Source: Phlegmacium glaucopus
Lineage: Eukaryota; Basidiomycota; Agaricomycetes; Agaricales; Cortinariaceae
Reading direction: 5' to 3'
Length of the DNA: 64,000 nucleotides
Assembly (NCBI GenBank): GCA_015039465.1
Contig: MU130570.1
Span: forward strand, 1 to 64,000
Part shown: positions 4,540 through 34,334 of the stretch, one piece after another
Position numbering within the stretch: position 1 is the stretch's first letter
How the letters are laid out: every line of letters begins with the position of its first letter
Notes under the pieces: model-generated
What the model was told of the DNA's origin: nothing
The model's input: only the letters and a program-made list of their open reading frames with translations
The model's database searches: none
Position numbers and translations under genes: made by a program

Positions 4540-5433
4540 ATTTACTTTACCCTCCCCCATATAATCCATATGGAATGGATAGAGTCCATATGGAATCCAT
4601 AAAATAGGGGGTGGATTCCATTCCATGGAATCCATGAAATAGGGATGGATTCCACCTTTATTCCATGGAATGTACATATGGATTCCATACTAGTACTCAT
4701 TCCATGGAATATAAGAATGGACTCCATACTCATCCCATCAAATTTAGGGGTGGACTCCATACCCATTCCATGGAATATACAGATGGATTCCATACTAATT
4801 CCATAGAATATAGGGCTAATTCTATAACCATTCCATGGAATATAGGGATAGACATACCTATTTCATGAAATATAGGGATGGACTCCAGACCTATTTGGAA
4901 TATACAGATGGATTCCACACCTATTCCACACTCATTCTATATAGAATCCATACACAATCCATATAGAATAGGTGTGGAATAGGTGTGGAATCCATCTATA
5001 TATTCCATGGAATGGGTATGGAGTCTATCTGTATATTCCTTGGAATGGGTATGAAATGGGTATGGAATCCATCTGTATATTCCATGGAATGGGTATAGAA
5101 TGGGTATAGAATGGGTATAGAGTCCATCCACATATTCCATGGAATGGGTATGGAATGGATATGGAGTCCATCTCTATTCCATAGAATGGGTATGGAATAG
5201 GTATGGAGTCCATCTGTATATTCCATGGAATGGGTATGGAATGAAGTTGGATTCCATCTGGAACATGACCATTCCATAGCCATTCCATATGGAATCCATA
5301 GTGACTATGGAATGAGAAAATGGCTGGGGACTCAGCCAAAAGTCATTCCATATGGAATCCATGGAATGACTGATGGACTCCATGGATTCCATATGGATTC
5401 CACATGGATTATATGGGGGAGTGTAAAGACCTC
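4540..5433 (+). mobile_element. TTCCATGGAA-word element, copy a (left arm of inverted pair)
   Basis: This non-autonomous element of 894 bp is made almost entirely of variants of TTCCATGGAATGGGTATGGA. Its 20-bp ends are ATTTACTTTACC..CCCCCA (4540-4559) and TGGGGGAGTGTAAAGACCTC (5414-5433). The long reading frames inside it are only translations of the tandem words. It is a near-identical inverted copy of 7055-7934. Its left flank is ATATATAC (4532-4539) but its right flank is CTATTTCC. The match to ATATATAC is instead found inverted at 7047-7054, beside the other copy (see finding). Confidence 0.85.
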
Positions 5434-5586
5434 CTATTTCCTCAGATCCACTTGGATCCACTCAGATTCTGATCAGATCAGATCAGATCTGGTGGGGACA
5501 GAAAAGTACTGAGGTATCTATTTTCTCAGATCTACTTGGATCCACTCAGATTCTGATCAGATCTGGTGGGGGACAGAAAAGTACTG
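5434..5586 (-). repeat. Two partial GATC-word element ends, inverted
   Basis: Two tandem partial copies of the left end of the GATC-word element (compare 12959-13080), in reverse orientation. Each runs from CTCAGATC..TTGGATCCACTCAG to a TGGGG(G)ACAGAAAAGTACTG terminus, the outer one at 5567-5586. If the 5434-7054 inversion is undone, this piece joins 7935-8113 and rebuilds one GATC element carrying the TTCCATGGAA element inside it. About 140 bases of AT-rich sequence follow up to 5729. Confidence 0.7.
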
Positions 5587-5729
5587 TATTTATTTTGATA
5601 TTGTACTTGGTTATTATATTAATGAAATAAATAATATTGAAGTCTGTATCCAAGAAAATTGATATGTACTGAGAATCTGCTTAGAAATGAGTGTCCAATT
5701 AAGTTTCTGATCAGATTCTGACCAGTTCT

Positions 5730-6439
5730 CAATACTTTACAGTCCCCCACCCTTTCCACTTGGAATCCTTTGGAATTCCTTGGAAACATTTGGAAACATT
5801 TGGAATCCTTGGAATTCTTGGGAATTCCAATTGTTTCCAAGATTATTTCCAATTTCATTCCAACTGTTTCCAAGGAATTCCAAATGTTTCCAAGGAATTC
5901 CAAGGATTCCAAGTGTTTCCAAGGAATTCCAATTGCCAACTTCCAAATCAAGTAATTAATCACCTGACTTGTAGCATATGACAAATAAAAGAATACTGTT
6001 AGGGGACGTTAGAACCCGGGAACCAAGTTGAATACAAAGGTGGTTATCGTCTATATACTACAGGCGTGGGAGCCAATTCGACTATATACAGCTAGGATGT
6101 AATAGAAGGTAGGACAAGGTAAAGATAACCTAAATATAAACTGACATCTGTCAAGATGTCATCGGCGAAGGGACGACTACTACTACAATAGAAGGGAGAA
6201 CACAAGGAGCAGGATAAGGGATGTGGTATGGGATACGATCATAGAGTGAGTGAAGGTAAGTACATACTAAGCAAGTGTAGAGGTGGACACAATGGGTGTC
6301 CCCTGACAAATACCAGTAAGGAGGATTGAACCAAAGACCTTGAGAAAGGTCATGTGACATAATTCCCACATCTGCATCAGTGATCTACCAACTGCACCAT
6401 CATTGCTTGCATATATATAAAAACTAATGGTTATATATA
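5730..6439 (-). repeat. TTCCAA-word repeat with tRNA-like head, copy 2
   Basis: Same order as copy 1: a 20-bp end CAATACTTTACAGTCCCCCA (5730-5749), an array of TTCCAAGGAATTCC words, a unique stretch, then the A and B boxes. It is interrupted by a 312-bp solo LTR (5997-6308). Copy 1 lacks this insert at the matching position (about 4411-4416), so it serves as the empty site. Confidence 0.7.
5997..6308. mobile_element. Solo LTR (TGTTAGGGG...CCCCTGACA)
   Basis: This 312-bp insert starts with TG and ends with CA, with short inverted ends TGTTAGGGGAC / GTCCCCTGACA. It is flanked by the 5-bp duplication AATAC (5992-5996 and 6309-6313). Copy 1 of the host repeat reads AATATCAGTAAGG with no insert. 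TG..CA ends, a 5-bp duplication and no coding content point to a solo LTR of a Ty1/copia or Ty3/gypsy element. A similar LTR lies at 25997-26409. Confidence 0.8.
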
Positions 6440-7047
6440 CCCTTCCCACTTGACTAAATAATATATTCTGGCACTTGCTGAGGGGCTACTACCATGTATT
6501 ATATACCAAAATGTTTATAAAAATGGGGGGAATCCATTGGTAATAAAACTGTGTTGTGATACACACTTTGATATGCAGTTATACATGAAATACTGCAGAA
6601 TATACAGTAAAATAATGTGTTCTATGCTTATAAATGAGCCGAACATGATGCACCATATACCGATAGAATTGTGCTAATCACAGCTTTCAGAATATATATA
6701 AATCATGTGCATGCACCTTGTCTGGTGCGTGTTTTTACACATTTTATATGTTTTAATATTGAAAAAGAGCTTATATTCCCACGCTAATAGTATGGTTATA
6801 TTCCCTAGCAGTGTAGCTTTCTATCGGTATAAGTTGCGTCATGTTAGGCTCATTTATAAGCATAGAGCGCATTATTTTACTGTATATTCTGCAGTATTTT
6901 GCATATAACCGCATATCAAAGTGCGTATCACATTGCGATTTTATTACCAATGGATTCCCCTCATTTTTATGAACATTTTGGTATATAATACATGGTAGTA
7001 GCCCCTCAGCAAGTGCCAGAATATATTATTTAGTCAAGTGGGAAGGG
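6440..7047. mobile_element. Foldback element with long inverted arms
   Basis: This 608-bp element begins CCCTTCCCACTTGAC and ends GTCAAGTGGGAAGGG. Its arms of more than 200 bp (about 6440-6660 and 6810-7047) pair with each other with scattered mismatches. It sits in a TATATA tract on both sides, so a TA-type duplication is likely but its length is ambiguous. It has no coding capacity. Confidence 0.7.
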
Positions 7048-7054
7048 TATATAT

Positions 7055-7934
7055 GAGGTCTTTACACTCCCCCATATAATCCATGTGGAATCCATATGGA
7101 ATCCATGGAGTCCATCAGCCATTCCATGGATTCCATATGGAATGACTTTTGGCTGAGTCCCCAGCCATTTTCTCATTCCATAGTCACTATGGATTCCATA
7201 TGGAATGGCTATGGAATGGTCATGTTCCAGATGGAATCCAACTTCATTCCATACCCATTCCATGGAATATACAGATGGACTCCATACCTATTCCATACCC
7301 ATTCTATGGAATAGAGATGGACTCCATATCCATTCCATACCCATTCTATACCCATTCCATGGAATATGTGGGATGGACCCATCCTATACCCATTCTATAC
7401 CCATTCCATGGAATATACAGATGGATTCCATACCCATTTCATACCCATTCCAAGGAATATACAGATAGACTCCATACCCATTCCATGGAATATATAGATG
7501 GATTCCACACCTATTCCACACCTATTCTATATGGATTGTGTATGGATTCTATATAGAATGAGTGTGGAATAGGTGTGGAATCCATCTGTATATTCCAAAT
7601 AGGTCTGGAGTCCATCCCTATAGTTCATGAAATAGGTATGTCTATCCCTATATTCCATGGAATGGTTATAGAATCAGCCCTATATTCTATGGAATTAGTA
7701 TGGAATCCATCTGTATATTCCATGGAATGGGTATGGAGTCCACCTCTAAATTTGATGGGATGAGTATGGGGTCCATTCTTATATTCCATGGAATGAGTAT
7801 GGAATCCATATGTACATTCCATGGAATAAAGGTGGAATCCATCCCTATTTCATGGATTCCACCCCCCATTCCATGGAATCCACCCTCTATTTTATGGATT
7901 CCATATGGACTATATGGGGGAGGGTAAAGTAAAC
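7055..7934 (-). mobile_element. TTCCATGGAA-word element, copy b (right arm of inverted pair)
   Basis: Inverted near-identical partner of 4540-5433. Ends: GAGGTCTTTACACTCCCCCA (7055-7074) and TGGGGGAGGGTAAAGTAAAC (7915-7934). The right flank AGAAATAG (7935-7942) matches the inverse of CTATTTCC (5434-5441) at 7 of 8 bases, and the left flank GTATATAT matches the inverse of ATATATAC at 4532-4539. The target duplications have therefore been exchanged between the two copies. Confidence 0.85.
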
Positions 7935-8567: not shown

Positions 8568-9446
8568 TCAGCAGGCACCATATACGCATAGTTGGATCCT
8601 TGGCAACATTAGCCACCACAGACATATAATTTCAAACCAATTTCCACAAGGGACACTTGGTAGTTGTTTGGGAGACATAAGTGTCAGTAGAGTCTTGCAT
8701 TTTGTTTTCTCTGTGACATAGCCTGCAAGATGTTCATGCCACCCAGTTTTATATAGCAGAGGGGGGATTTCTCTTGGAGCAGTAGGAATAGTAGCTTCAA
8801 ATGTGGGATATGTGGGAACCTCATTCTGCAAGTAGACATCAAACAGAGACTTTGGACTTGGAATAGAAGGCTGGACTTCAAAGTATGAACAGTCGAATTG
8901 AGGGTAGAATGTCTGTACATGCCTTCTGTGGTAGTGGTCTTCTGTTGTCTGGGGTAGATTTTGATGACTTGCAGACCAATGGTTTGCAAAGGTACAAGAT
9001 GATAATGCACAATAATTGCATACATTGCAGCAGTATGCATCATTATGGATCTTCAGAAGTTCAACTGGTTGATGATTATATGGAGGAGGAATATGGCTGT
9101 TGGTTGTGACTTTGTAATCTGCAACAATGTTATCCCATAGTGTCTTTTGCTCCTTTGTAGTTGGGATTTTGTGCTGATTGTTAACATGGGAGAGTGCAGA
9201 GGATGGCAAGACAACATATTGGCAGGTAACACATATCATAACTTGATGAACCTTATGAAAACGGTAGCCCAAGTAGTCCAGGAGAGCAGTTGACTGTAAA
9301 TTGGATGAGGCTGAAGAGCTATCATCAGATAGATTGTTGTGAGACTTGTTAAGCTAGGGAGTGGGAGATTGTGGTTGGAATGGATGAAAGTGATTGCCCT
9401 TGATAACAGATTGTGAAAGAGCCTGAGACCTGGCACTAGAAGACAT
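8568..9446 (-). pseudogene. Zinc-finger protein remnant with in-frame stop
   Basis: Starting from ATG at 9446, the frame reads through a Ser-rich N-terminus, hits TAG at 9354-9356, then continues open to 8568. It contains two similar C-x2-C-x12-H-x4-H motifs, CVTCQY..HVNNQH and CNVCNY..HWSASH. A conserved-looking tail follows (GWHEHLAGYVTEKTK), after which the frame decays. The spacing suggests paired zinc fingers of a kind common in Agaricomycete gene families, possibly near the OrsD-type zinc-finger proteins; that assignment is only a guess. One stop codon and the missing 3' end argue for a pseudogene. Confidence 0.5.
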
Positions 9447-14647: not shown

Positions 14648-15024
14648 TGTTACAACTTCAAACGATTCAGGTTGCTGATCGCTAACAGTCGTCACTATGT
14701 CGGGTTCAAGTATCAATCTGAGGACTTGCACTTTGTAGACTTGTAAAGGTCTAGAGCAGCGGTTGTCTTTGAGAGAGATGTAGAGTAGAAGGTTCATCTA
14801 TTAAAGACTAGGTAAAGAATAATGTACAGGATATGTAGGTTTATATACAAAAGTAGGAAATGAAAGGCATACGGTAAGGGTATGTAAAACATGTGTTCGA
14901 CACATGTATGAAAAGTGAACCGTAACAGCATGTAAGTGAAACAATAAACATTGCATGGAGTGGCATGTGTGATAATAGAAAAAAAAATGAAAAGGGTGTG
15001 TATGCAGCATGTATAATCGTAACA
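14648..15024 (-). repeat. Gypsy 3' LTR
   Basis: 377 bp, TG...CA, equivalent to 21996-22376. It is the 3' LTR because the coding sequence runs on the minus strand. Differences from the other LTR are C/T or A/G exchanges such as CGATTC versus TGATTC and GATCGCTA versus GATTGTTA. Confidence 0.93.
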
Positions 15025-15060: not shown

Positions 15061-15366
15061 TCAACAGCTGTACAATCTCTTTGCAAGTTGACAACGTTTG
15101 AGGACGTGACCGGGTTCATTGCAGAGGACACAATGGTTTCGAACCGTTCGCATGGTGTTAAGAGTCTGGAGTCGTTGATAATCTTCGTCATTGGGGATGT
15201 AAATCGGACTGTCTTTGGAGCCGTCGCCTTCTGAAATAGTGTAATATTTAGATGAAATTTTGGAAATCGAGACATGGGGGGTGACAGGAAGGATGATTGT
15301 GTCAATGGGAACATTGAGAATCAATTTCGCAGACGATAAGGGTGGAGAAGGGGTGTCGGAGACTGG
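15061..15366 (-). pseudogene. C-terminal part of gypsy second ORF, with zinc knuckle
   Basis: This open stretch encodes a Ser/Ile/Pro-rich segment (PVSDTPSPPLSS...) and ends with a CCHC knuckle, CVLCNEPGHVLKRC, close to the stop at 15061. A zinc knuckle at the very end of the element, after integrase, is unusual since the Gag protein already has one. Upstream, the frame runs into a 37-base A tract (T tract on the coding strand, 15367-15403). Beyond that the normal reading is lost because the mirrored segment begins. If that segment is reversed, the frame continues in phase through the T tract into the ORF that starts at 16840. Confidence 0.7.
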
Positions 15367-15403
<37 letters not shown>

Positions 15404-15405
<2 letters not shown>

Positions 15406-17189
15406 AGATTTATATTGGGATTCGGATTGGAGATTTAGATTTATATTGGGATTTAAGATAGTTTTCAGACCGCCTGACACTGGTCTGTATGTCAGGTCCG
15501 TAACAGGCAGGCCTGACACTGGTCTGTATGTCAGGTCCGTAAAAAGATGAAAGTGGCCTGAGACTGGCCTGAGAGTGGCCTGAGACTGGCCTGAAAATGG
15601 CCTTAAAATCACCTCAGGCGGTCTGAAGACGGCCTGAGACCGGTCTGTTGCACCCCCTGACATTTCATGTGCTTCCCCCATTAAGAGGACGGAACGTTGT
15701 TTTGATAGTGGCGACTTCTTTGACGGGCAGAAAATGAACTTTTAGAAATGTTTTCTAAACCTAATGGACTGGCTAACAATAGACTGGTTCCTGGAGTTAA
15801 GTGAAGAGTTAACAAATCTCTCGAAAACTTTGATGAACCCTAGTGTAGAAGGGAGAACTACCGAATAGTGGGGGTTTGGCTACCTCGATGACTTACTTGC
15901 TTAGTTATTTAACTTCGGATGAATAACTAAATAACGCGTAGAGTCGGTCTTCTTACCGGCTAACGGAACTTATGTGACCTTAAGTGTGTGTTGTTGGCTT
16001 CTGTACGACTGGTTAATGTGTGAGGTAAGTTTGAATACAAACCTCTTAGAGGATAACGCTAGGGGAATAGAAAACTTTTGTGCTTTATAGGTAGTTAGTT
16101 TCTATTTTACTTCTGTGACTAGTTCTTGGCTCTTCTTCGAGAGCGTCGTGTACTTGAACGTGCGTGTGTGTAACGTCTTACTTCGTTAGTTTAAAGTAGG
16201 GTAAGTTCTTCCCTGTCTTTCAAACCAATCTGAGTACGTTGGAGTTTTGCGACATGGTGTTCTTTTACCGGGGTTTTACGCTTCCTGGAAAGTTTTAGTG
16301 TCTTCAGAATCCTGGCTAGTGAATACTTAATGCTGAGGGTAGGAGTACCTTCTATGTATTGCAGAAGGTACGTAGGAATGAGGCTGGGATGTTTCTTTTG
16401 CTGCAGATACCTCTTTTGAAGCTGTCTGGTGGAGGACTTGATGAACTTCCACTTCTTCAAATACTTTAGTTTTGTTAAGATTTTGTGTCTTCTGCTCCTG
16501 CTTTACAGGTTATGATGTAGTTTACCTTTCCTATAGGCTAGAGGCTTCGTAACACCCTTTTGTTTCTTCGTAAAAGTCTGCTGCCGTCTGAACAACTGTT
16601 TGATATTTGTTACAGTGGTTGAGATTAGTTAGTGTCTTCGAGTTGTACGCAATGTGAAGGATACGTGTGTTCAATGAACTACTTCTCAAAAACTTTAAGT
16701 AGCTGGTCCACCGCTAGTAATGCTGTCTCAACCTCTTATATTCCCTCTTCGAACTTCTTCTTGCTCTGTTTGTCAAACAAGAGGGGGAAAAGTTGAAACT
16801 TCAGATGTTGGGAGTGTAGCTATTGAAGAAGAAGAATATTACGGAGCTCGAGTTCACTGTCTTTTTACGAAGGCTGGGTGACAGGCGGGAGAAGGTGGTT
16901 TAAAGTTAGTTGGTACGCGTGTGGCTGAAAGAAGAAGAGGGGGAAGAAGATAACTTAGACTATAGAAAAGATTACAACTTATAAAGCTGAGTGTACTTGA
17001 GTTGAGGTATGAATTTTTGTTTTTGTTGGAGTTTAACTAGTTCCTGTAGGAAACCCTGGCATCGTTGAACTTGACAGTTAAAGCGGTAATGAAGTTTTGG
17101 TTTGTCTGTTATGCTGCTGATCTCTTTCTTCAGTTTGCTGTTGTTTATTGTTGTTTGGAAGAGAAGCTGGTATACTCTCTTCCACCAGA
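15404..17189. other. String-reversed (mirror, not reverse-complement) gypsy segment
   Basis: Neither strand read 5'-3' gives gypsy protein here. The base-by-base complement read left to right does. It gives integrase core motifs SDQGPQF (catalytic D at 15784-15786) and HPQTDGATE (E at 15892-15894), exactly 35 residues apart. GPF/FHASLLRPY-type motifs follow, then a chromodomain-like YYIKWKGY (about 16510-16540), a short ORF from about 16646 and an ORF starting MPRAQV at about 16840. In the same mirrored sense, 15404-15671 equals the left part of the CCGGAC element seen forward at 18044-18285. The frame also has point decay: a CGA-type to TGA stop after HPQTDGATE, another stop shortly after, and a frameshift near 16180. 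Confidence 0.95.
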
Positions 17190-17427
17190 TAGGGCTTAGG
17201 ATTAATATTTAGGGATGGGGATATTTTCTGTCCGCGCGGTAGCGCGTTCTTAGGTTAGGAGGGGATACAGGCATGTTTTGTACTTCCACCGGACTTCCGC
17301 CGGACTTCCACCAGACTTCCACCAGACTTCCACCGGACTCTGACCGGACTCTGACCGGACTCTGACCGGACTTCTCTGGAGTCCGGCAGAATTCTGGCCG
17401 GACAATGTGGGGGAGTGTAAAGTCCTC
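17190..17427 (+). mobile_element. CCGGAC-word element copy 2, right half (left half is mirrored)
   Basis: It contains AGGGCTTAGGATTAATATTT, CTTCCACCGGACT-type words and the terminus TGGGGGAGTGTAAAGTCCTC (17408-17427), as in copy 1 (18044-18499). The target copy CCCCCTTC follows at 17428-17435. Its left half is 15404-15671 written backwards: reversed, it starts GTGTACTTTACAGTCCCCCA and is preceded by CCCCCTTC (15672-15679 reversed). The whole element would be about 506 bp, inserted in the integrase codons for Thr-Lys-Gly. Confidence 0.88.
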
Positions 17428-17435
17428 CCCCCTTC

Positions 17436-18043
17436 GTAAGACCTTGGTCGACCACGGACAAGATATAGTCGTATCCTTCGGCAGGTGGTAAGTCGGTGAT
17501 GAAATCCATAGAGCAATTAGCAAATGGCTGTGTCGATTTCGCTCCCTCCACAGGCATAAAAACCAGTTTTGAGGGGTTTCTGTCAATTTTAAACTGTTGA
17601 CAAGTTCCACATCCTTGGACGTAGTTCTTCACAAAGGTTCGGAGTCCAGGCCACCAGTAGTGCTGTCGTACTGCATTATAGGTTTCTAGTTCACCAGGGT
17701 GTCCAGCTGTTTCAGGATCATGGAACATTTTGACTATGTCCCGTCGTAGTTCGAAGTCTTTAGGAATATAGTTCTTTCCTTTGTAGAAAAGTATCCGTTT
17801 TCCTTCGAATTCTTCTGTTGTCCATTCATTCAGATCTCTCTGTGCAGATGATCCAGTGTCCAGTAGTAATTTTATTGCTTCGGCAGCATCGAGATCTAAG
17901 TCATCGGCGGAAGCAATTTGTTCTTGTAAGTCGGTATCGATGAGGTTTAGGAAAAGACTATCGGGGAGTAGAACAATGTCTTCATTATCATTGTCTTCTT
18001 CAGGGCAATGATCAGGTTGTCGAGAGAGGGTGTCAGATTGTAT
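17436..18043 (-). pseudogene. Gypsy integrase N-terminal part
   Basis: Integrase inserts the cDNA copy into the genome. On the minus strand this piece begins after transposon copy 1 with SDTLSRQPDHCPEED and has the zinc-binding HHCC module (FHDPETAGHPG and CGTCQQFK). It then enters the catalytic fold with SMDFITDLPP (first catalytic D) and stops at VVDQGLTKG, where copy 2 of the CCGGAC element is inserted. The rest of the catalytic core is only found mirrored in 15404-17189, whose first residues continue exactly from Thr-Lys-Gly. Confidence 0.92.
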
Positions 18044-18499
18044 GTGTACTTTCCAGTCCCCCACGTTGTCCGGCCGGAGTCCGGCGGACTCCACTAAAAT
18101 TCTGGTAAAAGTCCAGTGAGAGTCCAGTGAGAGTCTGGTCAGAGTCCGGTGAAAGTAGAAAAATGCCTGGACTGTATGTCTGGTCACAGTCCGCCGGACT
18201 TCCACCGGACATCCGCCGGACTTTTGATGGAATTTAGGGTTATATTTAGATTTAGAGGTTAGGCTTAGGGTTATATTTAGATTTAGGGCTTAGGATTAAT
18301 ATTTAGGGATGGGGATATTTTCTGTCCGCGTGGTAGCGCGTTCTTAGGTTAGGAGGGGATACAGGGATGTTTTGTACTTCCACCGGACTTCTGCCGGACT
18401 TCCACCGGACTTCCACCGGACTCTGACCAGACTCTGACCGGACTTTTCTGGAGTCCGGCAGAATTCCGGCTGGACAATGTGGGGGAGTGTAAAGTCCTC
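18044..18499 (+). mobile_element. CCGGAC-word transposon, copy 1
   Basis: This 456-bp element has ends GTGTACTTTCCAGTCCCCCA (18044-18063) and TGGGGGAGTGTAAAGTCCTC (18480-18499) and a perfect 8-bp duplication GATTGTAT (18036-18043 and 18500-18507). CCGGAC/GTCCGG words fill both ends; the middle has TTTAGGGTTATATTTAG units. It lies between the RNase H and integrase codons of the gypsy polyprotein, which resume in frame when the element and one target copy are removed. There is no coding capacity. Confidence 0.92.
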
Positions 18500-20557
18500 G
18501 ATTGTATCATCTTGCTTCCAGCCAGGTGAATGAGTTTCACATCGAATTTGGAGAGATATAGTGCCCATCTTGCTTGTCTTTGGTTCAGTTTCTTTGCTTC
18601 TCGGTAATATGTCAGGTTCTTGTGGTCTGACAATATAACCGTCATATGAGAGGATCCTTGAATGTAATGTCGCCATTCTTGGAGTCCACGAATGATTGCA
18701 AGCAATTCTCTGTCGTAAATTTCATAGTTCCGCTCAGTAGGGGAAAAGGTTTTCGATATAAAAGAGACTGGGTGTCTGTCTCTGTTCGAGTCCAATTGTG
18801 TGAGGACCGCACCTGATGCATATTTTGATGTGTTGCATTCAATTTGGAAAGGTTTCATATGGTCTGGCATCATAAGGACCGGTTCTTCTGTGAATCGTTT
18901 CTTCAAAGTGTCAAAGGTGTCTTGGCATTCTTGTGTCCATTCAAATGTTTTGTTCTTTCTCAAAAGATTGTTGAGTGGTCCAGCGAGTTCCGAGAATTTC
19001 CTAATGAATCTTCTGTAGAAATTTCCAAATCCAAGGAACAATTGTACTTCTTTGACGGTGGTAGGTGTAGGCTAGTCTCTAATTCCTTTGAGTTTTGTGG
19101 AATCCATAGAGACGTTACCTTCTTCGATGATCATTCCGAGATATTCAATTTTCTTCTTGTTGAATTCGCATTTCTTCGGTTTCAGGTAGAGATCGTGTTC
19201 TCATAGGCGCTGTAGGACCTTCTTCGTAATTTCTTCAAGATCTTTTTCACATGTTGCAAAGATCAAGATATTGTCCATGTAAACAATGACGTAGTCACCT
19301 TCAATGAGATCTTCAACAATTGAATCCATCATTGCCTGGAATGTAGCCAGGGAATTGCACATGCCAAAGAACATAACTGTTGGTTTGAAAAGTCCTCTGT
19401 TCATTTTGAATGCTGCTTTCCATTCATCACCTTTCTTGATCCAGACATTGTTGTAACCTCTAAGGACATCAAACTTGGTAAAACAAGTTGCGCCTTTTAG
19501 TTTGTCCATAATTTCAGAGATCAAAGGTAGGGGATAAGCATTCTTGACCATGTGTTCATTCAGGTATCGGTAATCTTGGCAAGGTCGTAACTTTCCATCT
19601 TTCTTGGGGACAAAGAAGAAAGGGGATGCCATCGGTGATTTCAATTTTCGAATGTATCATCGTTCAAGGTTTTCTTTGAGGAATTTGTCCAGTTCGGTTT
19701 GTTCTTCCGGGGTGAGATTGTAATTCTTGAAGGATTTTGGTTCAAATCCAGGTTTCATCTCGATTTTGTGATCCCAGGGCCGTTTGTCAGGAAATCTGTC
19801 TGCTTTCTTTCCGTCAAATACATCAAGGAATTTGTGATATCCTTTTGGAACCAGTTTTTCAACCGGAGTATCTTCCTTCTTGTCATATTTCTGTGCAAGT
19901 GTTTGAGATGCAGAGGTTTTTGCATTGATCCATATGTCATTGTCCGTTTTGCCAGTAATAAAAGCAATGGGTGATGATAGTTCATCATCATTGAGGGGGT
20001 TCAAGGTAGAATTCATGTATTCTTCTTCGTCATCTTCGTCAGTAATTGAAGATTTCAGGTATTTCGGGAATTCTCATTTTGGGGTGTCCGTTCTCATGTT
20101 TTGCTTAAAGAAGCGCCGTTTGCCAGTCCTTTTCTTCATTTCTCCAGGAGAATGCTCCAGTTTTCCAATTGATTTCTGGGTTAGTTTCTTGTAACCAGGG
20201 AAATCCAAGGATAATCTTCTGCTTTCCAAGTCCTGTGACTAAGAGTCGTTCTGTTTTTCATTGTCTGTTTACAATAAGATCAAGATTGACAAATGTCTTA
20301 ATAGTTCCGCATTTGTTTGGTGTTCCGTCTACATTAAAGACCTTCAGTGGTTCATCCAGTTTTTCGATCTTGAATCCAGATTTTCTTGCGTAGTTCTGGT
20401 CAATAAACTTTCCAGCTCCAGTGTCTATGAGTCCTTGGGTTTCAATGTCTTCCTTACTCGATGTCTGGCTTTCGATAATGATTGGAACAGAAATTGAATT
20501 GTTTGTTATCATAGCACTATAGACAGAGTAAATATCCAGACTGGGAGAGACTTGCAT
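18500..20557 (-). pseudogene. Gypsy protease-RT-RNase H, catalytically dead
   Basis: The protease motif LIDTGAGKFID lies at about 20430. RT blocks run from about 20016 to 19201 ([17 protein letters not shown], then VYMDNILIF). The catalytic YxDD box reads YMDN because GAT has become AAT. RNase H (about 19041-18508) has [23 protein letters not shown] and [12 protein letters not shown]; its first catalytic Asp is Asn here. Stops sit at Trp and Arg codons (TGG to TGA before the [11 protein letters not shown] block; CGA to TGA after VLQRL). These changes are all G-to-A or C-to-T. The copy could not replicate. Confidence 0.9.
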
Positions 20558-21995: not shown

Positions 21996-22376
21996 TGTTA
22001 CAACTTCAAATGATTCAGGGTTGCTGATTGTTAACAGTCGTCACTATGTTGGGTTCGAGTATCAATCTGAGGACTTGCGCTTCATAGACTTGTAAAGGTC
22101 TAGAGCAGCGGTTGTCTTTGAGAGAGATGTAGAGTAGAAGGTTTGTCTATTAAAGACTAGGTAAAGAATAATGTACAGGATATGTAGGTTTATATACAAA
22201 AGTAGGAAATGGAAGGCATACAGTAAGGGTATGTAAAACATGTGTTCGACACATGTATGAAAAGTGAACCGTAACAGCATGTAAGTGAAACAATAGACAT
22301 CGCATGGAGTGCACATGTGTGATAATAGAAAAAGAAATGAAAAGTGTGCATACGCAGCGTGTGTACAATCGTAACA
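21996..22376 (-). repeat. Gypsy 5' LTR
   Basis: 381 bp, TG...CA, paired with 14648-15024. It is followed outside by the target copy GCAGC (22377-22381). On the coding strand the LTR is followed by AAAGACTAGGTGTC, the position where a primer-binding site would be; I could not assign a tRNA. Confidence 0.93.
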
Positions 22377-28011: not shown

Positions 28012-29590
28012 GATATGATTTAATCCAGATGGTCAATGCACAGGATGCACTAAAGGTGTCCTGAGCAAGTGTGTGACACTCTAAAATTTTATCTATGCTG
28101 TCCTAGGTTGTCCTGGGGTGTCCTGGGATGTCCTGGTAGTGATGTGACACTAACAAATTACCCAAGGCTACCTAAGGCCAAAATCATTTTTCCTGATGTA
28201 TGCTTTCAGCCTTCTGCCCTGTCCAAAGAGCCCTCACCAACATTATCACTCATTCATTAAGAACAACCAGATCTATGGGGGGCAAAGGAACTCTCAAGGA
28301 GGTCAAGGCCACCAGTGACCAGACTGCATATGAAAATGTTATTAAAGCCTTGAAAGACACAGAGACAAAGGTGAGCTGTCTGAAACCTCCACTCTGATTG
28401 CTACTACCATTCCAAACATCATGTCCTATAGCTTCCAGCAAGTACACTCCCTCATTCTGACTCCTGAGATGGAGTTAACTGAATATTCCAAAATAGCAGG
28501 ACCCCCAACAAGACTGAGTTAGTTCTTTCTGTCCACATGTTTGTGGACAAGGAGGGCAGTGAGGCCAAATACCTCAAGACCCTTCACATTACCAAGAATG
28601 GGAACTACAAGACTAACAAGCCGAGTAATGGGGGTGGAAACTTTGAAGTTAATGCAGCAGTTGGAGCCTCATCAGGAAAAATGACTTCTGCCCTAGGCTG
28701 TCCTGAAATGTCCTGGGGTGCCCCAGGCAACTCAGGGCACTCAGGTCAAGAGGTCGCCCTGGGGTGCAAGTTACCTATGTATGAAAAGTCTTAGGCTGTC
28801 CTGGGGCAACCTGAGGCAACCTGAGAGCATCCTGAGGCAGCCTTAGTCCCTTTAGATCTGATGCTAGAAAACATATATAAACCAGATATTTGAGTGGTCT
28901 CACACAACAGAATAATAATAATAATAATAAAATTATATTCAATTATTCTAAACATCATATATACTAGTAATAAAATAATAATAAAATAGTGATACATAAA
29001 TATACTAGTATAATACTGGGGAAGTAGGAAATAAGAAAACAAAATTGTGGGTGGTTTATATATCTTTTGGATGGCGCACAGACCATTGGTCACATGATCA
29101 CAGATAAGCATGATTTCAAGCATATGGTGCTGGGTCAGGGTAGATTACATAAATTCCAAAAAAGGAAATTTTTTAAAAGATGGTAGAGAATTGTTTTAGG
29201 ACCCTGAATATGTTTAAATTATATTAATAGCAGCTCTCCTTATTGAGAAAACTGCAAAATACTTTCCTGGACGCAGCAGTTAAAGATTTTCTAGCAAAAT
29301 TCATAAATTCTAAGGGACTCCCAGGGCCTCCTGATGTGATTTAATCCAGATGGTCAATGCACCAGGATACACTAAAGGTGTCCTGAGAAAATGGGTGACA
29401 CTCAAAACTTTATCTATGCTGTCCTAGGTTGTCCTGAGGTGTCCTTGGATAAGTGTGTAACACTCAAATTTTACCTGTGCTGCTCTAGGATGTCCTGGGG
29501 TGTCCTGGGGTGTCCTGGGATGTCCTGAGTAGTGATGTGATACTAACAAATTACCCAAGGCTACCTAGGGCCAAAATCATTTTTCCTAAT
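28012..29590. repeat. CCTGGGGTGTCC-word repeat complex
   Basis: Two direct repeats (28012-28197 and 29332-29590) start GATTTAATCCAGATGGTC, contain TGTCCTGGGG words, and end TCATTTTTCCTGATG or TCATTTTTCCTAATG. A third word block in the other orientation lies at 28670-28850, starting CATCAGGAAAAATGA. Between them are a weak coding-like stretch (28270-28690), AT-rich DNA (28880-29030) and a unique core (29060-29330). The core is homologous, inverted, to the interior of the GTCCGAGT element at 12841-13500. CATCAGGAAAAATGA may be this family's terminal repeat, but no target duplication was found. Confidence 0.6.
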
Positions 29591-29948: not shown

Positions 29949-31048
29949 TAGTGATGGGCAGGGGTTTGGGAAACCCCTGGGGTACAAGGGTAAGGGTAAG
30001 GAGGGTCAGGGTCAGGGTACAGATTTTTTGACCCTTGACAAACCCTTACCCTTCTGGAGGGTCAGGGGTTTTTTAGGAATTTTTATTTCTCTAATATCAG
30101 AATGATGTAACTGTTGTGTATCTATAAAAATGACTTTAAATCAGAGAAAAAGAAAATCCAAAGAGGCCTCACTGCTTTCACAACAATCAGTAACCTAAAA
30201 TACTAGTCAAACCCTCTCTATTTCATTGAAAATATATTGATAAACATCTTTAACACCCTGAACATATTTCAAATAATAGCTACTTTGAAGGTTTCTTGGG
30301 ATTATAAAACCTGAGGAAATATTTGGACCAAACCCTTGCACTAAACTCTGCTGGGGTTTCTTACCCTCAACCCCTCAGAAACCCTTACCCTTACCCTCCA
30401 AAACCCTTACCCTCACCCAAGGGTAAGGGTTTTGGAGGGTAATGTCGGAAATATCAAAAGTGCCTTATAATCAGTCACAATTTTCTTGTGACTGTCACAC
30501 TGTAAAAAGACTCTGTTCTGGTACAAGTTGTACATGTATTTTAGCCATTCATACTGTATGTGATATCTTAAAATCAGTTAATCTTCTGAACTCTCAGAAA
30601 TCTGGGGTGTAAAACAGTGAGGAACGAAATTTGGTCAAACTTACAAGATGAACTGCGGCCTTATGAGGCCTTATGAGGCTGGTAATCCCAATAATCCAAA
30701 TGTGATGAATTTGTGACCGGGCAGAATTGGTCACATTTGGATTATTGGGATTACCGGCCTCATAAGGCCTCATAAGGCCGCAGTTCGTCTTGTAAGTTTG
30801 ACCAAATTTTGTTCCTCACTGTTTTACACCCCAGATTTTTGAGAGTTCAGAATATTAACCGACTTTAAGATATTTTGAATCAAATTGAATGGCTAAAATA
30901 TGTGTACAACTTGCACCAGAACAGATCCTTTTTTCCAGTGTGACAGTCACAAACAAATCGTGACTGATTATAAGGCACCTTTAATATTTCCAACATAAGG
31001 GTAAGGGTCAGCCTAATTCCACCCTGGGGTTACCCCTGCCCATCACTA
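29949..31048. mobile_element. hAT-like non-autonomous element with GGGTAAGGGT words
   Basis: The ends are TAGTGATGGGCAGGGG (from 29949) and CCCCTGCCCATCACTA (to 31048), typical of hAT termini. The perfect 8-bp duplication is GATGTCTG (29941-29948 and 31049-31056). Arrays of GGGTAAGGGT and its inverse lie near both ends and in the interior (29980-30070, 30350-30440, 30998-31010). It contains a nested palindrome at 30443-30995. There is no transposase, so it depends on one made elsewhere. Confidence 0.88.
30443..30995. mobile_element. 553-bp near-palindromic foldback element
   Basis: The two halves are almost complete reverse complements, meeting near 30710-30720 (GGCCTTATGAGGCCTTATGAGG on the left pairs with its inverse at about 30755-30780). 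The ends are TGTCGGAAATAT / ATATTTCCAACA, flanked by TAA on both sides (30440-30442 and 30996-30998). A 3-bp TAA duplication is what PIF/Harbinger elements make, so it may be a Harbinger-type MITE; the class is tentative. It has no coding content. Confidence 0.7.
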
Positions 31049-31183
31049 GATGTCTGTATGAGCCATTCATGGATGCTGGTCCTGCACAAAGAACATCAGA
31101 TGGAACTGGGTATTTTTGGGAACAGCCTCAAGAAGTGCTTGCCACCAGAGTGCAACCACTAGCACAAGGTCAAAGACACCACA

Positions 31184-31754
31184 TGTTAAGTTTAAAACAA
31201 GGAAGTCACGTCGGAGTTACTCCGGAACGGAACCGGAACAGTAAGCGGAAAGGACGTTGGCCTCAGCGTGTGTGCTGTGCCGCCCAGCTCCTAAGGTGTC
31301 CTGATTTCGGAACGGAAGAAGAAGTAATAAGACGGAAGACCTCAGTGACTTAGAGGACGAACAAGAGGAGGAAACAAAGTTGATATTCGAACTGAGGGAA
31401 AACATACAAGTTCGAGTACTTTAAATATAAAAGGAATTGCAACCAAAATATAGAATATAAATATAAGTGCTGCGTTCAGCTCCCAGAAAAGGTCCTGCAT
31501 TCTTGGGTGAATAATCCATGGCTGGTGTGCTGACTGATAGTGGGAAAGTGATGACAAAGGAATAGTTGTTATGACGAAGGTGTGGTAAGGGGTTTGGGAT
31601 ATCGTCGGAAGAGTCGGAGTGATACGGAGAAGTCTTGGAGTCAGACATAGGAGGAGTAGAGTTGGAGACAAGGGAAAGTACTGGAACGGAGTACGGACTA
31701 CCGGAAACAACTCCGTCGGAGTCGGACCGGAGTAACGTGTGACGGAATGTAACA
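31184..31754. mobile_element. Solo LTR, copy A (TGTTAAGTTT...GAATGTAACA)
   Basis: 571 bp with TG...CA ends and a perfect 5-bp duplication CCACA (31179-31183 and 31755-31759). It is homologous over its length to copy B (31868-33753). It has a single GGAATTGC at 31433-31440, the empty counterpart of the hAT insertion in copy B. Confidence 0.85.
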
Positions 31755-31867
31755 CCACAGAGTTATACAAGTTGATGAATATTTTTGTTCCAGCCAAAGC
31801 TGGGAAGATGTCTCTGAAGCCTGTATTTGAATGCAGACAAAAATGAAATGTTTGTGTATCTGAGGTT

Positions 31868-33753
31868 TGTTAAGTTTAAAACAAAGTCACGTCGGAGTTA
31901 CTCCGGAACAGTAAGCGGAAAGGACGTTGGCCTCAGCATGTGTGCTGTGCCGCCCAGCTCCTAAGATGTCCTGATTTCGGAACGGAAGAAGAAGTAATAA
32001 GACGGAAGACCTCAGTGAAATCAGTGTCACGAACAAGAGGAAGCAACAAACTTAGAGAATAAACAGAGGAGGAAACAAAGTTGATATTTGAAACTAAGGA
32101 AAAACATACAAGGATCGAGTACTTTAAATTTAAAGCAAAAAGGAATTGCTAGGGATGCCGAAGTTCAGTTCGGTTCAGTTCGGGACCCATTTTCTCAGAA
32201 CCAGAACCAGAACCACTTAGGAAAACTAGAACCAGAACCAGAACCAGAACCGAACCAACAGAACCGGTTCTCTTGGTTCGGTTCTGGTTCAGAACCAGTT
32301 CGAACCATAAGAACCAGTTAAAAATAGACTTTTGTTAGGATATCACCAATTAGACAAGAATTTTTCATTTTAAGTTTTATTTTCTGAAATTACACCTTAT
32401 TTATAAATATATCTTAAAAGTTGAGGCCAGAAGTCTGTAGTATTGGTGTTATAACCATGACATCACTAATAGCAAACATGAAAAGAAAAAATACTATTGT
32501 CAGGGAACACTCAGTTTTCCATCCAATCAGTCCAACTCCTGACTTTCAGTCTTTCACATGAACACCCAGACCCAATGAGCTTCACACCCAAACCCAAACC
32601 TAATTCCAAAACTGTAAATTCCACCTCACCAACAAACTTAGTTCCCCTCTCATTTCTACTCTTCATTTTCATTTGGCCCCAACTTTCACCTGAGTACCTG
32701 AACATGACCAGTTCAGCCCAAACTCTAAATTATTTTTTATAAAAGGTCTAAATTGGTTACCTCTTTTTCTAGATAACTTCATTTTTCTATTATACTGATA
32801 TGGTACCACTAATAATATTAATAATGAAATACAAACTTGTCATTTTTCATTTATTCTGGTACTGTACCACTTATCATTTTATTATTTTCACATGACACTA
32901 TTTGATTATTTATTTTCCATAACTCCATTATCTCTATATTAGTACTTAAATCCCCCCTCACTTTAGCAGGGATCCTTATCCTTTCCTCTTTGGATCCTCT
33001 GCTAGGTGACAACTATAAATTGGATTCTTGCAATATGAGTATATTAATAACATGGTAAACCTAAAGTTATAAAGTAAATGAGACATGTTATTGATTATGT
33101 ACTATGCCAGACCAAAGAATGATGTACTTCTGATTGGAAATATATAGTGTTGGTGACTTGGATAAATATTTTCATTATAGATACAGGTACAATGTGTGAT
33201 TTAACATGCAAATAAGTAGTTATCTTACTTAAATATTTGCCTTGGGATAAAGTGGTTCAGAACCGGTTCGAACCGGTTCAGAACTGGTTCTCAGATTTCT
33301 GGCCAATCCAGAACCAGAACCAGAACCAGATGGCTGGGGGTGAACCAGAACCAGAACCAAACCAGAACCGCGGTTCGGTTCAGCTGGTTCTGGTTCTCTG
33401 GACTGGTTCAGAACCGAACTTCGGCATCCCTAGGAATTGCAACCAAAATATAGAATATAAATATAAGTGCTGCGTTCTGCTCCCAGAAAAGGTCCTGCAT
33501 TCTTGGGTGAATAATCCATGGCTGGTGTGCTGACTGATGATGGGAAAGATGATGACAAAGAATAGTGGTAGTGGCGAAGAAGTGATAACGGGTTTGGAGT
33601 ATGGACAGAGGAACCGGAATGACACAGAGAAGTCTCGGAGTTGAACATAGGAAGAGTAGTTTGGGATATAAGGGAAGGCACTGTACGGAGTATGGACTAC
33701 CAGAAACAGCTCCGACGGAGCCAGACCAGAGTAACGTATAACGGAATGTAACA
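31868..33753. mobile_element. Solo LTR, copy B, interrupted by hAT element
   Basis: Same LTR family as copy A, with a perfect 5-bp duplication AGGTT (31863-31867 and 33754-33758). It is split by the 1,283-bp hAT-like element at 32150-33432. About 600 bases remain when that insert is removed. Confidence 0.85.
32150..33432. mobile_element. hAT-like non-autonomous element with GAACCAGAACC words
   Basis: The ends are TAGGGATGCCGAAGTT and AACTTCGGCATCCCTA, classical hAT-type termini, with a perfect 8-bp duplication GGAATTGC (32142-32149 and 33433-33440). Arrays of GAACCAGAACC and GGTTCTGGTTCGG lie only in the outer 150-180 bases at each end (32160-32325 and 33250-33420). The central 900 bases are AT-rich and non-coding. 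The intact copy A LTR gives a clean empty site. Confidence 0.92.
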
Positions 33754-33758
33754 AGGTT

Positions 33759-34334
33759 CCATGCTTACCAAATTATACCAATGGCTTCAATGAAGACAAC
33801 CATGAACTGAAGTATATTTTGATTGAAGTACCCTCTTGAATTGATTTGTTGGTGGCATGGCACTAGACTCATGACCAGTCAGAGAATGAGGAGGGTAGAG
33901 AGAGTCCTCAATTCTTGGTTCACCAGAGTCACATGAGTGACCAGAAAAAACTTGCACAGCACCAACAATGTACATCTTCAAATTGTTCTTTGATAGATGG
34001 GCACCAAAGAAAGTTGTTTGGCATGAACAAGAGAAGATGGGTGTGTTGCATAGGAAGATCTTGCTAACGAGCCATTATAACTGGCAGATCCTGTGCACTA
34101 GTACCCGCAGCTACAACAAACAAGACGGAAGCATTCAAAATTTCATCGTCACGGAATCGTACTTGGAGATATCATACAGGACTATCTGCTGACTCTCGGA
34201 TCCTGGAAGTGTAATGTTCTGTTCAAATCCCTATACAAACCAATGTAAAAAGGAGCGATAGCCTTCTAAAACGCGTTCAGATGGAAGATTGGCGATACCA
34301 AGGTACGGCACGCACCGGGGACGATGAGCCAAAT
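33759..34334. other. Gene-less stretch left of Per1
   Basis: A plus-strand frame (33968-34192, MYIFKLFFDRWAPKK) has no recognised domain. No repeat ends or RNA gene are seen. It includes the 3' flank of the Per1-like gene, which is read towards this stretch. Confidence 0.4.

Follow-up and report, generated by a model that had tools for sequence, protein, structure and literature searches.

A backwards-written segment of a gypsy retrotransposon in the Phlegmacium glaucopus assembly, very probably an artefact of assembly text handling

The window, i.e. the whole stretch of 64,000 nt analysed here, is the start of contig C203 and carries a gypsy retrotransposon in which 1.8 kb of text appears to run backwards without being complemented. 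The question raised by this locus is how such a segment could have arisen. The initial annotation placed it at positions 15404–17189 (1786 nt, strand “.”), an extent with which our paralog alignments are consistent. For comparison we used L039–L043, the downstream parts of five of the seven best paralogs, with the window itself left out. In BLAST, the reversed text of the segment matched all five fetched paralogs collinearly, with 84–90% identity over 691–1466 nt. The individual values were 89.0% over 1378 nt (L039), 85.5% over 1406 nt (L040), 85.9% over 1466 nt (L041), 84.5% over 1464 nt (L042) and 89.7% over 691 nt (L043). In four of the five, the match started at window position 17189, where the reversed text begins. 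The presence of a backwards, uncomplemented gypsy piece was thereby confirmed.

The segment text as given had no BLAST match on either strand in the same five loci (E 1e-5), and a true genomic inversion was therefore rejected. Chance similarity is excluded by the bit scores of the reversed text (916–1790) and by the paired target sites described below. The strongest dinucleotide biases (CA/AC, TA/AT and TC/CT) resembled those of the gypsy flank solely in the reversed reading of the segment. The CpG signal was too weak for dating. The normal flanks were 80–88% (left, the four copies that align) and 87–91% (right) identical to the same copies, similar to the 84–90% of the segment, so there is no sign that the segment is older in its mirrored state.

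According to the initial annotation, the plain complement of the segment, read left to right, encodes the integrase core of the element. We found the core (rve) in this reading at 15667–15873, with a significant Pfam match (PF00665, E 6.4e-10). The D-35-E spacing was as had been described, with the D at 15784–15786, the E at 15892–15894 and 35 residues between them. The chromodomain, which had also been predicted, was located on the plain complement at 16461–16598 (PF00385, E 1.6e-9). Between the two, at 16212–16394, we observed a Tf2-1-like SH3 domain (PF24626, E 2e-15) in a frame other than that of the core. The complement reading frame is thus broken: it contains stops, and the integrase core and the SH3/chromodomain part lie in different frames, so that the gypsy copy would be degenerate even with its text set right. 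Two ORFs in ordinary minus-strand reading, of 226 and 103 aa, overlap the segment; they had no Pfam match above the cut-off, and one sub-threshold match, PF10180, scored 19.2 bits where 25 were required.

The remainder of the element is written normally, on the minus strand. It comprises a pol piece with the integrase zinc-binding domain at 17255–18289 (PF17921, E 1.3e-20), an RNase H piece at 18349–19071 (PF17917, E 1.1e-35) and a reverse transcriptase piece at 19201–19656 (PF00078, E 6.2e-25), the last with at least 150 matches in the genome, its own copy counted. When the mirrored part is read backwards as a separate piece, the pol order is RT, RNase H, H2C2, D35E core and chromodomain. The element is flanked by a 293-nt repeat pair on the minus strand, 7.3 kb apart and 96% identical over its length, of which the member at 14670–14962 likely lies in the 3′ LTR and that at 22019–22311 in the 5′ LTR. 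The host element is a Ty3/gypsy chromodomain retrotransposon (chromovirus), an ordinary copy in a degenerate state. With the known elements of this type it has in common RT, RNase H, the zinc-binding domain, the D35E core and the chromodomain; it departs from them in its degeneration and in its stretch of backwards text. Elsewhere in the assembly, two pairs of gypsy matches had identical scores, one on C128 (372827 and 384416, 11.6 kb apart) and one on two contigs (C25:132608 and C86:44659). It is possible that these pairs are duplicated pieces of the assembly.

Evidence for the reversal that is independent of the proteins came from a nested element. Its first copy (456 bp, 18044–18499, + strand) has imperfect terminal inverted repeats and is enclosed by an 8-bp duplication, GATTGTAT, at 18036–18043 and 18500–18507. 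The second copy is divided by the right seam. One half stands in mirrored text at 15404–15671 (strand “.”), as the reverse of 18044–18283 with 84% identity (E 1.9e-79), and the other half stands in normal text at 17190–17427 (+ strand), as direct repeats with 18284–18499. In the reversed reading the two halves join at the seam: the first runs up to the counterpart of 18283, and the second takes over at that of 18284. The right seam is thus exact to one base inside the nested element, and no base was lost. The target-site duplication of this copy is CCCCCTTC at 17428–17435 (+ strand, normal) and CTTCCCCC at 15672–15679 (strand “.”, written backwards), and these two 8-bp copies can be matched only in the reversed reading of the segment. 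The initial annotation had the protein resume across the seam at the very codon where the normal part stops (“...LTKG, then V”). This continuation must be qualified, as the 506-bp second copy, which had been overlooked, straddles the right seam and interrupts it. With its 8-bp target-site duplications and imperfect terminal inverted repeats, the nested element is presumably hAT-like by the 8-bp duplication rule. Inverted ends, here imperfect, and 8-bp duplications are features that both copies share with non-autonomous hAT-like DNA transposons; unlike the known ones, one copy here is split by a seam.

The left seam has a different structure, which had also escaped the initial annotation. The alignment of the left flank ends at position 15366 (four of the five fetched paralogs could be aligned here). 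It is followed by a run of 37 A at 15367–15403 (+ strand), which directly precedes the segment. In all four alignable paralogs, exactly 91 other bases lie between the equivalent of 15366 and the point where the reversed segment begins. The left seam, where 37 A occupy the place of these 91 bp, looks like an assembly break.

We also assessed the direction of the text without homologs. A strand-symmetric fourth-order Markov model, fitted to the remainder of the window, scored the forward against the backward direction of the text. Across the cross-validated scan of 212 pieces of 600 nt, the four lowest values (−47.0 to −19.6 per kb) all belonged to the segment, and 22 pieces scored below zero. 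The best mirrored stretch of the whole 64 kb by Markov score was 15325–17053, in a search that was not cross-validated. The next lowest score in the scan, −19.0, belonged to 31201–32400. As several other loci match this region in ordinary orientation, 31201–32700 was rejected as a mirrored stretch in spite of its negative scores, and we must note that single pieces can mislead the letter-order test. Nevertheless, the forward-against-reversed likelihood scan put the segment lowest without homologs, and it could be used to screen other assemblies.

The A-run at the left seam was taken to the whole assembly (60.5 Mb, 259 contigs). On the + strand of the contigs, runs of at least 28 nt comprised 44 of A and 11 of T (binomial p 8.7e-6). 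Natural A-runs would be expected to be even between the strands, since contig orientation is arbitrary. Runs of exactly 21 A occurred at two sites only, both on the + strand. Of the 44 A-runs, we inspected 32, that of the window included, together with ≈ 3 kb of the surrounding text, and likewise five of the 11 T-runs. The threshold for a mirror-like 700-nt flank by letter order was −6.4, set from 174 overlapping cross-validated pieces of the window, ≈ 2% of which fall beneath it. At least one such flank was present at 16 of the 32 A-run loci and at none of the five T-run loci; the other 16 A-run loci had no mirrored flank by this test. About one of the 62 scored A-run flanks would be expected under the threshold by chance (two further flanks were unscored for N's). 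In the gypsy-locus control (13 loci, of which L001 is the window's own), none of the 52 pieces was under the threshold and two were below zero. Scores merely below zero were found for three of ten T-run flanks (lowest ≈ −6), 20 of 62 A-run flanks and 14 of 174 window pieces. The shares of T-run and A-run flanks are thus much alike, only strongly negative flanks distinguish the A-runs, and the control is small.

Reversed-text BLAST matches back eight of the 16 mirror-like loci. At four of them the match lies at or nearly at the run: L055, L079, L077 (the window) and L078, the last being a weak match of 70%. At L050, L052, L059 and L080 it lies 0.5–1.2 kb from the run. Where two loci matched each other, the mirrored partner was decided by the sign of the Markov score. 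On C26, the text to the right of a run of 34 A is the reverse of window positions 28806–29468 at 98% identity, and forms the first part of a mirrored stretch adjoining this run that extends over ≈ 4.6 kb by score (L081 3929–8630, run included). At C13:166868, the 675 nt to the left of a run of 28 A are repeated backwards on its right with 100% identity. Some loci carry the mirrored text to the right of the A-run and others to the left, and C23 has it on either side. At the other end of L081, at 543–1423 and 300 bases from a run of N's (1–243), we observed a stretch that L064, L083, L071 and L058 match in the reversed reading only. Judging from these matches, this part of C26, near the N's, may be mirrored as well.

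The given, i.e. mirrored, text of the segment had 18 matches in the genome, comprising the segment itself, C87 and 16 short ones. The match at C87:82022–82663 has 68% identity over 645 nt and is likely another mirrored gypsy piece, judged by this alignment. Contig C87 contains no A-run of at least 28 nt, so the A-run is not always present. C87 was not among the matches listed for the zinc-binding domain, where 117 of 984 candidates were scored and from which absence does not follow. An old family of mirrored elements is disfavoured, as the copies in normal orientation are closer to the segment (84–91%) than C87 is (68%). In consequence, a mirrored stretch on C87 would be a separate event. The 16 short matches are at most 201 nt long and lie within the first 177 query bases, in the repeat-rich end of the nested element; one has 84% identity over 167 bases of C13. 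Some of these may be further mirrored pieces.

With reversed-only alignment to the five fetched paralogs and recurrence at other loci, the backward segment is very probably an artefact of text handling during assembly, with no biology behind it. The main support for this reading is that further backward stretches stand next to long A-runs at other places in the assembly. The initial annotation had offered a choice between a processing error, in which reverse was used for reverse-complement, and a deliberate edit; our results strongly support the former, and the recurrence does not fit the latter. The assembly step behind the reversal we infer from the observed recurrence, seams and A-run bias. 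Fill text would have entered the gypsy copy, reversed and uncomplemented, when a gap was closed or contigs were joined. Starting at the right-hand contig edge (17190), the fill would probably have grown to the left and been written down in the order of its discovery, a detail towards which we lean with some reserve. The remainder, left over beside the left-hand contig edge (15366), would then have been output as A's. The segment also differs from mirror repeats, i.e. same-strand text that reads alike backwards. Those that are known are short stretches of simple composition, unlike the 1.8 kb of coding-like text in the window.

Long-read gap-closing tools, including PBJelly, FinisherSC and LR_Gapcloser, were compared in PMC8848313. 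In the excerpts of that study, gap-closing errors place untrue fill sequence at a contig gap, as in the window segment. The errors treated in these excerpts are low identity and broken or overfilled gaps, and not text reversal as here. The corresponding excerpts of PMC6733440 and PMC8848313, both gap-closer papers, make no mention of text reversal. Among the literature matches listed, no printed description of a text-reversal error was found, which is no proof that it is undescribed.

It is also possible that the artefact took a different form, in which small contigs were only half reverse-complemented (i.e. reversed) when placed, and the A-runs are noise from consensus polishing at joins that lacked read support. 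We regard this variant as a somewhat doubtful candidate, and the weight given to it shares in the confidence placed in the artefact reading. Mirrored text on either side of the A-runs agrees with it, and so does C13, where the end of the adjoining text recurs within the mirrored text, as would be expected of an overlapping contig put in the wrong place. Misplaced small contigs are therefore a possible source. On the other hand, the base-for-base right seam is more readily explained by fill grown out of a contig edge than by a contig placed on its own. A single deliberate edit, by which one segment was reversed in the file, e.g. as a planted test, is very improbable. It would account for the exact reversal at the right seam, but other contigs also carry mirrored text, and a bare reversal would not yield the A-run and the 91-bp loss at the left edge; the edit is a misfit because mirrored text recurs. 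That the segment is real DNA, i.e. that a strand was copied in parallel polarity and kilobase stretches were joined beside A tracts, is improbable in the extreme, and no observation speaks for it directly. No polymerase or recombinase is known to make parallel-strand copies, and an unknown strand-parallel copying reaction would be needed if it were true. Text handling is indicated by the appearance of mirrored stretches in unrelated pieces of sequence, by the excess of A-runs on the + strand and by the 100% forward/backward pair on C13.

The artefact reading leaves the finding real as text, and its lesson concerns data quality. Text reversal leaves length and base composition unchanged, and annotation of either strand is blind to it; it can therefore pass ordinary assembly checks. 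It ruins the reading of genes and can produce false ORFs. Since 16 of the 32 examined A-runs had a mirror-like flank, gene models near such runs in this assembly should be distrusted.

Further features of the window were recorded apart from the mirrored segment. No match to Rfam at the gathering score was found in the window. Four short arrays of tandem repeats lie at 30000–34000 and are irrelevant to the segment. A 261-aa ORF at 8568–9353 (− strand) contains an OrsD-type domain (PF12013, E 1.8e-13). A large inverted repeat occupies 4626–7861; its arms (423, 299 and 66 nt) are 99–100% complementary and have 1.6–3.1 kb between them.
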